A stretch of DNA of 33,701 bases, taken from Planctomycetota bacterium. GTDB lineage: Bacteria > Planctomycetota > Planctomycetia > Pirellulales > Pirellulaceae. The notes beneath the pieces are model-generated. The model was not told the origin of the DNA, made no database searches, and was given only the letters and a program-made list of their open reading frames with translations. Positions 5,256 to 26,060 of this stretch are shown here, piece after piece; the first letter of the stretch is position 1, and each line of letters starts with the position of its first letter. The DNA lies in assembly GCA_016872725.1 (NCBI GenBank), contig VGZC01000053.1, positions 1-33,701 of the forward strand, in the 5' to 3' direction. The translations under genes and the position numbers were made by a program.

Positions 5256-6119
5256 CTACTTGGGCGTCGTCTCGCTCGGCGGCGGATTGCCGGGAGCCGG
5301 CGCATCGCCCTTCGGCTGTTCATCGGCCTTCTTCCCACCGGCCGGCGCATCGCCCTTCGGCTGTTCATCGGCCTTCTTCCCACCGGCCGGCGCATCGCCC
5401 TTCGGCTGTTCATCGGCCTTCTTCCCACCGGCCGGCGCATCGCCCTTCGGCTGTTCATCGGCCTTCTTCCCACCGGCCGGCGCATCATTGGCCGGTGGGG
5501 TGTCGATCCCGGGCGCGTTGCCGCTCGGCGGCGCCTCGCCGGGGGGCGCGGGCGTTTCACCCGGAGGTCCGTCCTTGCCAGGTCCCTCCTTGCCCTTCGG
5601 ATCGCGACTCCGGCGTCCGCCGCCACCGCTCGCGCCGGCCGCGACCGGTTCGGCGGGAGGCGGCGCGTCGATGCGCGGCGAGACATAGTCCGGATCCGCT
5701 TCGATGGGTAGTTCCTCGTTCAGGAAATGCAGGTCGAAGATCGGCTTCTTGTTGTCCTTGATGCTCTTTTCCTCGAGCGGCGAATAGGCGACCCAAATCC
5801 AATACTGCTTCCACGGAAGGCCGGCCGTCCAGGCGTACTTCTCGACGTACTTGTTCGGGCCCATCTTCTTATACGCGGGATCCTTACCCACGATCGCGCG
5901 GATGTCGTCGCTGTTGAGCGGGGGCAGCGGCGAGGCGGTGCGTTCATTGACCGCATTCTCGATATTCTCGTAGGCGAGTTCCGCCGCGGGCCTCGCCATC
6001 TTGCGGTCGTACGCGAACGCGCCGATGAGCACGATGAGGAGGATGAACAAGGCCAACTGACGGAGTACGGTCGATTTGCCGGAGGAAGGGGAAGTCGGCG
6101 GACGTTCGTGCGAGGACAT
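5256..6119 (-). CDS. Membrane-anchored protein with a tandem-repeat tail, unknown function
   Basis: 287 residues. The ATG at 6117-6119 follows AGGGTGG. A short polar N terminus is followed by one membrane helix (about 20-40: LRQLALFILLIVLIGAFAY). Residues 41-150 look globular, rich in aromatic residues near LPWKQYWIWVAYSPLEE. The remainder is Pro/Gly/Lys/Glu-rich and low in complexity, including four copies of a 15-residue unit DAPAGGKKADEQPKG. It is probably an extracytoplasmic domain with an unstructured tail. No family is recognised. It probably forms a two-gene operon with the zinc-ribbon gene just downstream. Confidence 0.8.
   Translation of the reverse strand: MSSHERPPTSPSSGKSTVLRQLALFILLIVLIGAFAYDRKMARPAAELAYENIENAVNERTASPLPPLNSDDIRAIVGKDPAYKKMGPNKYVEKYAWTAGLPWKQYWIWVAYSPLEEKSIKDNKKPIFDLHFLNEELPIEADPDYVSPRIDAPPPAEPVAAGASGGGGRRSRDPKGKEGPGKDGPPGETPAPPGEAPPSGNAPGIDTPPANDAPAGGKKADEQPKGDAPAGGKKADEQPKGDAPAGGKKADEQPKGDAPAGGKKADEQPKGDAPAPGNPPPSETTPK
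5296..5487. repeat. Coding 45-bp tandem repeat, four identical units plus a partial one
   Basis: Units begin at 5296, 5341, 5386 and 5431, each 45 bp and identical at every base read; a fifth copy starts at 5476 and breaks off after about 12 bases. The period is a multiple of three, so the unit encodes a 15-residue repeat and keeps the reading frame. Perfect identity, including third codon positions, suggests recent expansion and likely copy-number variation between strains. Confidence 0.95.
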
Positions 6120-8454: not shown

Positions 8455-8623
8455 CCAATGTCGCACGCCGCTCCGCGGCGTGTGCACCGCTACCGACCAT
8501 CTACCGTCGCGAGGCGCGGCACGGAGTGCCGTGCGACATTGTCGCACGCCGCTCCGCGGCGTGTGCACCGCTACCGACCATCTACCGTCGCGAGGCACGG
8601 CACGGAGTGCCGTGCGACATTGG
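8455..8623. repeat. 169-bp element with 13-bp terminal inverted repeats (cluster C)
   Basis: Two 80-bp units (8459-8538 and 8540-8619) differ at one base and are separated by a single T. Each begins with a hairpin (CACGCCG-CTC-CGGCGTG type) and ends with another (GGCAC-GGA-GTGCC type), joined by an unpaired middle ACCGCTACCGACCATCTACC. The whole element is bounded by perfect inverted repeats CCAATGTCGCACG (8455-8467) and CGTGCGACATTGG (8611-8623). No coding capacity is credible. It occupies the upstream region of tkt. Confidence 0.85.
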
Positions 8624-20084: not shown

Positions 20085-20211
20085 CATCGTCGCACGCCTC
20101 TCCGAGGCGTGTTTTCCGAGTCAACGCGTATCTCCGAGGCGTGTCAGCCCATTCATCGTCGCACGCCTCTCCGAGGCGTGTTTTCCGAGTCAGCACGCCT
20201 CTCCGAGGCAT
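20085..20211. repeat. Two ~69-bp units carrying four palindromic cores (cluster D)
   Basis: Units begin at 20085 and 20154, each starting CATCGTCGCACGCCTC. Perfect hairpins CACGCCTC-TCC-GAGGCGTG lie at 20093-20111 and 20162-20180. A degenerate copy sits at about 20123-20141 and another, with one mismatch, at 20194-20211. The core and leading bases match the element at 25012, so clusters D and E belong to one family. It is intergenic, between rsmD and the 882-residue gene; the remaining 190 bases up to 20401 show no gene or clear promoter. Confidence 0.85.
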
Positions 20212-23428: not shown

Positions 23429-25000
23429 ATGCGGAAACAGGGAGCACCGGCCGTCGGCATCGATCTGGGAACCACCTATTCGGTCGCCGCCGCGCTCGAT
23501 GCGTCGGGTCGGCCAAGGACCTTGACGAACGCCGAGGGCGACATCCTGACGCCGAGCGTGGTGCGGTTCGACGGATACGATGTCGCGGTGGGACGGCCCG
23601 CGCTCGATGCCATGCTCACCGACATGCCGAACGTCGCCGAATGCCCGAAACGCGAATTGGGCCAGCGGGTCTTCCCGAAAATGATCGGAGGACGCCAGTA
23701 TCCGCCCGAGGCGCTCGAGGCGTGGGTGCTCAACAAGATAAGGCTCGACGCCGCCCGCCATGTGGGCGATATCGAAAAGGTCGTCATTACCGTGCCGGCG
23801 TATTTCGACGAGGTCCGTCGCAAGGCCACGATGGATGCGGGATACATGGCGGGCTTCGACGTGATGGACATCATCAACGAACCGACGGCGGCCGCCGTCG
23901 CGTTCGGATTCCACGAGGGGTTCCTTCGCGGCGACGGCGCGGCGCACGGGTCCACGTCCCCCTCGTCGAGCCAAAACGTGTTGGTCTACGATCTCGGCGG
24001 AGGCACGTTCGACGTCACGGTCATGGAGATCCGCGGCCACGACTTCCTGACGCTCGCCACCGACGGGGACATGCGGTTGGGCGGCCGCGATTGGGACCAG
24101 CGGCTCGTGGATTATGTGGCCGAGGAGTTCATTCGGACGTACGGCGTCGATCCCCGCGAGGACCCCCACGCGTTCGGCCGTTTGCTGCGCGCGTGCGAAC
24201 TGGCCAAGCGGCGCCTGTCGAGCGAGCCGTCGGCGACGATTGTGTTCGAGTACGAGGGATGCCCGAATCGAACCGAAGTCACCAGGGCCCTCTTCGAGGA
24301 ACTCACCGTCGATCTGCTCGAACGGACCCTGCTGACCACGCGCCAGACATTGGAGGCGGCCGGCATCGCGTGGCGCGACGTGGACCGCATCTTGATGGTC
24401 GGCGGATCGACCCACATGCCGGCCGTGCCCCGGATGTTGGAACACCTTTCGGGACGCGCTCCCGATCGGTCGGTATCGCCCGAGGAAGCGGTGGCCCAGG
24501 GCGCGGCGCTGCACGCCGGCCTGTTGCTTTCGCTGCACGCCGGCGCGGCGCCTCCTTTTTCGATCCGCAACGTCAATTCGCACAGTCTCGGCGTCGTCGC
24601 CCAGGATGCGAAGACGCACGAGGAACGGAACGCGATCCTCATCCCCCGCAATACGCCGATCCCCGCGGACGCCCGGCGCGTCTTTCGAACGCGGCACGCG
24701 AACCAGGCGTCGATCCGCATCGAAATCATTGAAGGCGAAAGTTCGTCGCCGGCCGATTGTTCGTTCGTCGGCAAATGTTCGGTGCGGCCTCTGCCGCCGA
24801 ACCTCCCCGCGAAGACGCCGATCGAAGTCCGCTTCCACTACGAGGAGAACGGCCGGTTGAATGTGCGTGTCGGACTCCCCGGCGAGCCGACCCTCCTGCA
24901 CCACGAACTCACGCGGGAGAATTCGCTCTCGCAGGAGCACCTCGATCGATGGCGTCACTACATCTCGCAGGTCCCGCCGCCCGGCCACGAAACGGCCTGA
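23429..25000 (+). CDS. Hsp70-family chaperone lacking most of the C-terminal lid
   Basis: 523 residues against about 640 for DnaK. The ATG at 23429 follows AGGAAAG by about 10 bases. The ATPase domain is complete: phosphate loop 1 GIDLGTTYS (10-18), INEPTAAAVAFG (149-160), phosphate loop 2 VYDLGGGTFDVTV (186-198) and the adenosine motif LMVGGSTHMPAV. A beta-sandwich substrate domain follows (FSIRNVNSHSLGVVAQD, then FRTRHANQASIRIEIIEGE). The helical lid is reduced to a short tail ending VPPPGHETA. No DnaJ or GrpE gene is adjacent, so this is probably an auxiliary Hsp70 like those multiplied in planctomycetes and not the housekeeping DnaK. The stop lies 11 bases before the repeat array. Confidence 0.92.
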   Translation: MRKQGAPAVGIDLGTTYSVAAALDASGRPRTLTNAEGDILTPSVVRFDGYDVAVGRPALDAMLTDMPNVAECPKRELGQRVFPKMIGGRQYPPEALEAWVLNKIRLDAARHVGDIEKVVITVPAYFDEVRRKATMDAGYMAGFDVMDIINEPTAAAVAFGFHEGFLRGDGAAHGSTSPSSSQNVLVYDLGGGTFDVTVMEIRGHDFLTLATDGDMRLGGRDWDQRLVDYVAEEFIRTYGVDPREDPHAFGRLLRACELAKRRLSSEPSATIVFEYEGCPNRTEVTRALFEELTVDLLERTLLTTRQTLEAAGIAWRDVDRILMVGGSTHMPAVPRMLEHLSGRAPDRSVSPEEAVAQGAALHAGLLLSLHAGAAPPFSIRNVNSHSLGVVAQDAKTHEERNAILIPRNTPIPADARRVFRTRHANQASIRIEIIEGESSSPADCSFVGKCSVRPLPPNLPAKTPIEVRFHYEENGRLNVRVGLPGEPTLLHHELTRENSLSQEHLDRWRHYISQVPPPGHETA

Positions 25001-25011
25001 GCGGACAATTG

Positions 25012-25568
25012 TCGCACGCCTCTCCGAGGCGTGTTGTGCCGGAGAAAGGCTTTGGGGTAGGAAGCCTCGCCTCGGAGAGGCGAGCGACGAACCGAGGCGT
25101 GTTGTGCCGGAGAAAGGCTTTGGGGTAGGAAGCCTCGCCTCGGAGAGGCGAGCGACGAACCGAGGCGTGTTGTGCCGGAGAAAGGCTTTGGGGTAGGAAG
25201 CCTCGCCTCGGAGAGGCGAGCGACGAACCGAGGCGTGTTGTGCCGGAGAAAGGCTTTGGGATAGGAAGCCTCGCCTCGGAGAGGCGAGCGACGAACCGAG
25301 GCGTGTTGCGCCGGAGAAAGGCTTTGGGATAGGAAGCCTCGCCTCGGAGAGGCGAGCGACGAACCGAGGCGTGTTGCGCCGGAGAAAGGCTTTGGGATAG
25401 GAAGCCTCGCCTCGGAGAGGCGAGCGACGAACCGAGGCGTGTTGCGCCGGAGAAAGGCTTTGGGATAGGAAGCCTCGCCTCGGAGAGGCGAGCGACGAAC
25501 CGAGGCGTGTTGCGCCGGATGGCGGCTTTGGGATAGGAAGCCTCGCCTCGGAGAGGCGAGCGACGAAC
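25012..25568. repeat. Eight-unit 68-bp palindromic tandem array (cluster E)
   Basis: A leading core GTCGCACGCCTCTCCGAGGC at 25012 is followed by eight 68-bp units starting at 25026, 25094, 25162, 25230, 25298, 25366, 25434 and 25502. Each unit carries a long-loop stem (GGCTT...AAGCC) and a tight hairpin TCGCCTC-GGA-GAGGCGA, which is the core of cluster D in the opposite orientation. Variants are ordered: units 1-4 read GTGTTGTGCC and 5-8 GTGTTGCGCC; units 1-3 read GGGGTAGG and 4-8 GGGATAGG; only unit 8 has GGATGGCGG. The array fills the gap between the Hsp70 stop and the sigma-fragment stop, ending 3 bases from the latter. Confidence 0.95.
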
Positions 25569-25571
25569 GCC

Positions 25572-26060
25572 TCACGCGGGTGGAAAACGGCGATCGAGGG
25601 CCGAGCGGCAATAGGCGTGCAGGCCGAGTTCGATGACTTCGCGCTCGAGCGCGTCTCGGCTTGGGCATGCCGTTCCCAGCATGCGGGCCACCTCGTCGAG
25701 AAGCAGGTCGGAAAACCGCATGCGGGCACGCTGGAGCGTCTTCCTAAGGGCCGCCGGAGAAAGGACCGATTGTCCCGAACGGCGCCGGGACAGCGCCTCG
25801 GCGAGCTGTTCCGTTGTGGAATCGGGGTTTCGAGTGCGTTCCTCGAGCAGCGCGTAGTAGGGTTGCCCCATATCGCATTCGTGTTTCCGCAGCGCCGACC
25901 AGGCGTTGGCAAGCATCTCGTCGCGGCAACTGGCCACGAAGTCCGCGCCCTCGACTTCATCAAACGCCTCGGAGGCCACAGTCTTCGTCCATCGCACGCT
26001 CGAATTCAGATATTTGGCGAATCGAGTCACAGTTGAAATCGGCCGGCTATTGGGGAATAG
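25572..26060 (-). pseudogene. N-terminally truncated planctomycete ECF-type sigma factor
   Basis: The frame is open from a TAA at 26061-26063 to the stop at 25572-25574, with only a GTG at 26028-26030 as a possible start (152 residues). The sequence matches the end of a planctomycete sigma-70 family: RFAKYLNSSVRW (like the end of region 2), then FVASCRDEMLANAWSALR, a region-4-like helix-turn-helix (STTEQLAEAL ... AALRKTLQRARMRFSDLL) and the typical tail LLLDEVARMLG ... LGLHAYCRSALDRR. Most of region 2, needed for core binding and -10 recognition, is absent. It is most likely a remnant. A regulatory fragment is possible but less likely, because the neighbouring kinase gene is also broken. Confidence 0.75.

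Follow-up and report, generated by a model that had tools for sequence, protein, structure and literature searches.

An array of hairpin-forming units fills the gap between the converging ends of two genes in a contig of a Planctomycetota bacterium (family Pirellulaceae; VGZC01000053.1, positions 1 to 33,701, the whole stretch analyzed and hereafter the window), and raises the question of what such an array is, how it came to be there and whether an enzyme of the same genome acts on it.

Layout of the array and its neighbors

Tandem Repeats Finder reported 8.0 copies of a 68-bp period at 25024-25568, with 98% matches and 0 indels, which bears out the eight units at exact spacing given in a preliminary description of this DNA. 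The array stands, as described there, between two stop codons. Upstream is a gene for a 523-aa Hsp70-family protein (23429..25000, forward strand; stop at 24998-25000), and a 152-aa ORF on the reverse strand (25572..26030; stop at 25572-25574) converges on the array, whose last base, 25568, indeed lies 3 bases from that stop. A family match was sought for the 152-aa ORF and none was found; to judge from its sequence, it may contain a sigma region 4-like helix-turn-helix.

The hairpins belong to the two main REP types of this genome, y (stem CACGCCTC) and z (stem CTCGCCTC). The array is headed by the core in the opposite orientation, as first described: a complete forward y-type hairpin at 25011..25033, with tag GTCG, stem CACGCCTC/GAGGCGTG and loop TCC. 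The body (25024..25567, forward strand) consists of eight tandem units, each made of the 3' half of a y REP (CCGAGGCGTG), a 32-nt spacer, a full inverted z REP and GAA. The z REPs (tag GTCG, stem CTCGCCTC/GAGGCGAG) are all on the reverse strand, at 25066..25088, 25134..25156, 25202..25224, 25270..25292, 25338..25360, 25406..25428, 25474..25496 and 25542..25564 in units 1 to 8. Of the two stems ascribed to each unit, one therefore stands as a tagged REP hairpin (8-bp stem, TCC loop), and the second REP is present as its 3' half only.

When the units are aligned, units 1-3 are identical, unit 4 is changed at position 34 (G to A, between units 3 and 4), and units 5-7 are changed at position 14 too (T to C, between units 4 and 5); a four-base block at unit positions 21-24 is found in unit 8 alone. 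The three shared markers that had been reported, each switching once, are thus three switches, of which the 21-24 block is not shared because it is private to unit 8.

Further copies lie elsewhere in the window. Two more complete y-type REPs occupy 20089-20111 and 20158-20180 on the forward strand (span 20089..20180), with partial copies between and after them, and two tandem REPINs (pairs of inverted REPs) with the stem variant CACGCCGC/CACGGCAC and an unchanged GTCG tag and TCC loop span 8460..8618 (y REPs at 8460-8482 and 8541-8563, inverted partners at 8515-8537 and 8596-8618). The window contains 15 GTCGC-N7-TCC hairpins, compared with a mean of 0.005 per window in 200 base shuffles; the hairpin array is not a chance product. 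A separate 45-bp repeat at 5296-5486 (4.2 copies, 100% identical), amid overlapping long ORFs, is probably a 15-aa protein repeat.

Dispersed copies and hairpin pairing

Among the readings first offered for the array was a non-autonomous mobile repeat, against which a genome holding this one array alone would speak. A search of the genome (5.24 Mb, 100 contigs) for the core gave 36 exact copies over 15 contigs, and the 23-mer core with up to 3 mismatches occurs at 178 places (0 for the reversed-pattern control). The tagged hairpin is found genome-wide in single, paired and array forms with differing spacers, and the periods of the other clusters include 48, 57, 63, 70, 79 and 98-99 bp. These dispersed copies and other arrays exclude the single-array case. 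Being a short, dispersed palindrome in high copy, the core has the character of REP, REPIN and BIME elements, and its dispersal, together with its tie to a RAYT gene (see below), supports the mobile-repeat reading. Some REP clusters lie at contig ends (C21, C59, C60, C62, C67 and C95), so that the count of copies is probably too low; REP arrays seem to be points where the assembly breaks.

At 34 loci of this genome, the TCC-loop hairpins carry the tags GTCG (164), GACT (5), GTTG (4) and TTCG (4). The canonical GT[A/G]G tag does not occur among them, GTAG and GTGG both being at 0, and exact matches to a relaxed pattern in this genome gave GTTG 4, GTAG 0 and GTGG 0. With GTCG as its own tag instead of GT[A/G]G, the element is therefore a variant of the REP/REPIN class, not a canonical member.

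Folding a complete forward-inverted pair (88 nt) gives a single long hairpin (-31.5 kcal/mol, z -7.3), and 0 of 200 shuffles folded equally well; a lone 68-nt unit folds far less strongly, with z -2.1 on one strand and -2.8 on the other. The orientation is head-in, a forward REP followed by an inverted one; of the 42 adjacent pairs of this kind at the 34 loci of this genome, 35 have a gap of 29-34 nt. Two inverted REPs at a fixed distance thus form the unit, as in REPINs and BIMEs. The spacers vary in sequence between loci of this genome, so distance is kept more than sequence. Stem variants (CGCGCCTC, CTCGACTC, CACGCCGC, CACGGCAC, CTCGCCCC and others) stay paired, with compensation, and the GTCG tag and TCC loop are unchanged.

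A RAYT gene between GTCG REPs

The genome has 3 matches to Y1_Tnp. One is the gene of a REP-associated tyrosine transposase (RAYT) at C32:42710-43507, which scores 27.8 bits (cut-off 23) and has GTCG REPs on both sides: it lies between REP clusters, and one REP extends into its 3' end. A RAYT flanked by the same REPs is the arrangement of a REPtron. Its best NCBIfam match is REP_Tyr_transpos (NF047646) at 46.8 bits, under the cut-off of 80 that would make it an equivalog, and the NCBIfam IS200 model gives 14.3 bits (cut-off 55). The protein has the motifs NHVH and YIEENP, and H166, H168, W205, R214, Y225 and N229 are invariant in a set of 71 sequences. No solved structure matched in a structure search with the single sequence; a profile of 71 relatives matches 4er8 (E 7.8e-8). 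The predicted model (pLDDT 88.9) likewise has 4er8, the structure of a RAYT in complex with its REP hairpin, as its top structural match (Z 13.5, rmsd 2.9, 135 residues), with Z about 10-11 for IS608 chains. The protein therefore has the HUH and Tyr motifs and, according to the predicted model, the fold of TnpA-REP. From this homology, we infer that the REPs may be mobilized by the enzyme.

A second RAYT-like gene of the same genome, at C4:39696-40322 (L142), is 38% identical and interrupted by one in-frame TGA; GTCG REPs were absent in the 3 kb examined there. The two remaining Y1_Tnp matches are small proteins, L031 (on C2) and L032 (on C12), with Y...Q..HH motifs, the signature of subclass 1.2 (PMC6006769), and a search of their loci for GTCGC-N7-TCC hairpins found none. 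Of the papers cited here by PMC number, PMC2817692 is Nunvar 2010, PMC6006769 Corneloup 2018, PMC8266576 Corneloup 2021 and PMC3116915 Bertels & Rainey 2011.

Growth of the arrays and alternative explanations

The units are 98% alike at exact spacing and their markers switch in blocks, as would be expected of an ordinary minisatellite, a local tandem repeat made by slippage and of no mobile origin. Slippage accounts for the growth of the array and not for the element itself; the same tagged hairpin occurs genome-wide, singly, paired and in arrays with different spacers, and beside a RAYT. Because of these dispersed copies, the minisatellite is refuted as a full explanation, and we give it almost no credence. 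Growth was compared across the junctions of 15 clusters. In 7 of the 15 (the window array, the first C32 cluster, C29, C11, C21, C28 and C58), an internal junction has at least 4 bases in common with the DNA after the last unit; in the window, these bases are GAAC. At C28, the junction bases are also present before the first unit, so that they may be a short match instead of flank. The junctions of 5 of the 15 clusters (C2, C18, C20, C49 and the second C32 cluster) share 0-2 bases, and C3, C59 and C62 gave no junction judgement. At the window, C32, C2, C18 and C62, the repeated unit begins midway through the first hairpin, with its 3' half, which places one breakpoint at or near the hairpin apex. 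Since several junctions contain locus-specific flank bases, those arrays grew in place, and the stepwise duplication proposed earlier is supported in a local form, because the window junctions carry flank bases; the block order of the markers fits. These observations support duplication in place after insertion, and slippage or unequal exchange would be its route.

It is also conceivable that the array is kept for a role in the host between convergent genes, as 3'-end hairpins, a transcription block or a gyrase or nucleoid-protein site. The array does lie between converging stops, a REPIN folds strongly on either strand, and such functions are known for REPs in other bacteria (PMC6006769). Against this, no intrinsic-terminator match was found in 24900-25700, nor any Rfam match. 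The loci of 34 Hsp70 relatives held one GTNG-TCC hairpin altogether and therefore give no sign of a conserved position; these relatives have protein identities of at most 69%, too distant for nucleotide junctions to be compared. We consider a host role unlikely as the reason for the array. Still less probable, and by a wide step, is a membership in the second superfamily of Di Nocera 2013, the CGTC-tagged REPs, for which no dedicated transposase had been reported. The z REPs of the window array are preceded by C, giving CGTCGC, and TGTC is accepted for CGTC (PMC3733652), with C or T before GTC in 111 of 164 REPs. The base before GTCG varies, however (C 61, A 53, T 50 in the 164 REPs), and the REPs of this genome have 8-bp stems and a 3-base loop, whereas CGTC REPs are described with loops of 4-5 bases, AT pairs at the base of the stem and, for the most part, a CCA tail (PMC3733652). 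In addition, GTNG is kept at 18 of 18 near-identical places in other genomes. We rejected this assignment on the variable preceding base, the 3-base loop and a CCA tail that is outside the eight commonest ones.

Tag variants in the phylum and the family

At the E-value limits applied, searches for relatives of the RAYT gave matches in 58 of 392 genomes of the phylum and in 109 of 241 of the family, a family set that includes no second genome of the same genus. We surveyed hairpins at 119 RAYT loci, taking perfect 7-bp stems and reading the tag 8 bases before the loop. GTNG tags were found at 198 of 302 TCC-loop hairpins (GTCG 131, GTAG 32, GTGG 23, GTTG 12) and at 0 of 304 complementary GGA-loop controls; the other tags include GGAG (16), GTAA (12) and some that are displaced by one base. 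The tag rule left 36 of the 119 loci without a clear tag, and the 83 callable ones were GTCG (34), GTAG (31), GTGG (12), GTTG (3) and GGAG (3). Examples of the rarer kinds are L057 (1-1110), a RAYT locus with GGAG-tagged TCC-loop hairpins, and L129 and L130, with GTTG-tagged ones.

On the RAYT tree, GTCG occurs in one large clade, inside which there are one GTGG and one GTAG call; it is also found in the clade of this genome (L053, L113 and L114) and as isolated cases in L141 and L132. When up to 1 mismatch is allowed, the 23-mer occurs in 6 further family genomes, and 18 of 18 places there differ from it at tag base 3. Among the matches listed for the relaxed pattern, genome G540 has GTAG at 48 of 48 places, G535 has GTAG 6, GTGG 2 and GTCG 4, and G539 has GTAA 9, GTTG 1 and GTGG 1. 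The RAYTs of G542 (L119, 48% identical) and G543 (L115, 52%) belong to the sister clade of that of this genome.

If the tag acts as a guide, its third base would pair with the cut site, and the expected flanks are CT, CC, CG and CA for GTAG, GTGG, GTCG and GTTG, respectively. In the 6 nt on the 3' side of the REPs, CG is more frequent with GTCG (0.63 vs 0.17-0.44), with an overall permutation value of 53/500. The upstream flanks gave no signal between tag base 3 and dinucleotide (permutation 217/500).

A candidate specificity residue

In a scan of 217 alignment columns, residue 42 leads an uncorrected ranking with a normalized mutual information of 0.62, the next column having 0.34. It lies before the PHW motif, just N-terminal of strand beta-1. 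Arg or Lys is found at this position at 33 of 34 GTCG loci, and Leu or Met at 30 of 31 GTAG, 11 of 12 GTGG and 3 of 3 GTTG loci.

The overall concordance of residue and tag is 104 of 109 loci, a set without the tagged locus L082, whose protein is short. For a held-out set, the tag rule was applied without change to 39 further loci drawn from that family list, of which 12 had no clear tag and 27 were callable; the residue was read by motif pattern, not alignment column, and the loci are phylogenetically dependent on the first set. Concordance there was 25 of 27, with Arg accompanying GTCG in 9 of 10 cases and Leu, Met or Phe accompanying other tags in 16 of 17 (Fisher p 2e-5, relatedness ignored). 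Parsimony puts the number of changes at 3 for the residue class and at 6 for the tag class. When the tag was simulated on the tree, 4 of 5000 runs reached the residue-42 correlation; corrected for the choice of column over 2446 column features, 40 of 1000 did so (p about 0.04, marginal), these simulations being restricted to runs with 20-89 of 109 tips GTCG.

The exceptions are L132 and L232 (GTCG with Leu), L220 and L227 (GTGG with Arg) and L189 (weak GTAG with Lys), and they are partly clustered, as L220 and L227 both have 'TCRPHW' with GTGG. Three uncalled loci lean the contrary way: L225 (Arg; GTGG 3, GGAG 2), L195 (Arg; GTTG 3, GTAG 2) and L120 (Leu; GTAG 2, GTCG 2). A second candidate residue, the Gln after Trp at the E. 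coli Q95 position, is absent at 10 of 42 scorable GTCG, 2 of 45 GTAG and 2 of 15 GTGG loci. On these sequence correlations, residue 42 is a good candidate for reading the third tag base, at least in part.

For comparison, the tag acts in cut-site choice, contacts to the tag in E. coli are found around beta-1, beta-4 and the C-terminus, and with the Stenotrophomonas enzyme a third-base change to a GTTG tag abolished cleavage (PMC8266576). We tentatively propose, at somewhat less than even confidence, that the family holds a natural REP/RAYT series whose third guide base can vary freely (GTAG, GTGG, GTCG, GTTG) and in which the enzyme is retuned largely by one residue, Leu/Met or Arg/Lys before PHW, in three changes, with the hairpin constant near this genome. 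Such a series would amount to a single-strand transposase whose specificity is switched in nature.

Proposed mechanism and comparison with known systems

The array very probably consists of REPINs (inverted pairs of REP hairpins, or BIMEs) in tandem that belong to a REPtron (REPs and their RAYT), mobilized by the RAYT and then duplicated in place. During replication, a REP would fold on single-stranded DNA; the HUH/Tyr nuclease encoded on C32 would bind the hairpin and its 5' tag GTCG, cut alongside and mobilize the two-hairpin unit into new sites. After insertion, tandem duplication in place, by slippage or unequal exchange and with one breakpoint at the first hairpin's apex, would produce the 68-bp array. 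Residue 42 of the RAYT may, at least in part, read the third tag base, with Arg/Lys for GTCG and Leu/Met for GTAG, GTGG and GTTG, and lineages of the family would have changed both.

The present set bears on how a RAYT reads its conserved tetranucleotide, and on how an enzyme can change specificity in step with hundreds of dispersed sites. It supplies natural tag variants, a hairpin that recurs with one base changed and a candidate residue, and therefore reduces the question to one point mutant and four oligonucleotides. Searches for REPs that are limited to GT[A/G]G have reason for a wider scope.

We found no description of GTCG REPs with a RAYT in the open-licence literature, and the term GTCG is absent from the available text of PMC2817692, PMC3733652, PMC6006769, PMC8266576 and PMC3116915. 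In an earlier survey, the REPs found all had GT(A/G)G heads, and the RAYTs fitting the criteria were confined to gammaproteobacteria (PMC2817692); another REP search was based on GTAG/GTGG, the feet of class 3 and subclass 2.6 being atypical (PMC6006769).

IS200/IS605 transposases such as those of IS608 and ISDra2 share the fold (Z as above) and the HUH-Y1 motifs; the hairpins here, in contrast, are dispersed without the gene, and an IS200/IS605 element is not supported as their source, as the NCBIfam IS200 model is below its cut-off. The two superfamilies GTAG and CGTC, the latter without a dedicated transposase, resemble the present REPs in their head-in dimers, heterodimers and clusters and, for GTAG, in the RAYT link, and GTAG repeats had been recorded in the superphylum to which Planctomycetes belong; GTCG, however, matches neither consensus (PMC3733652). 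REPtrons 2.5, 2.7 and group 3 likewise have a perfect hairpin (a short one in 2.5) with a tetranucleotide at its foot, and the motif rows of subclass 2.7 (NHVH, W, YIxxNP) resemble this RAYT, but their tag is GT[A/G]G, whereas natural GTCG and GTTG systems are found here (PMC6006769, PMC8266576). There is also a close likeness in layout to Pseudomonas fluorescens SBW25, where REPINs and ordered tandem clusters are described: its REPIN/BIME clusters also have an inverted pair at fixed distance, ordered clusters with flank bases and an adjoining RAYT, and differ from ours in that here the tag is GTCG and one REP per unit is a 3' half (PMC3116915). The kind of array is already known; what is new is the non-canonical GTCG tag of a REP/RAYT system and a candidate specificity switch.
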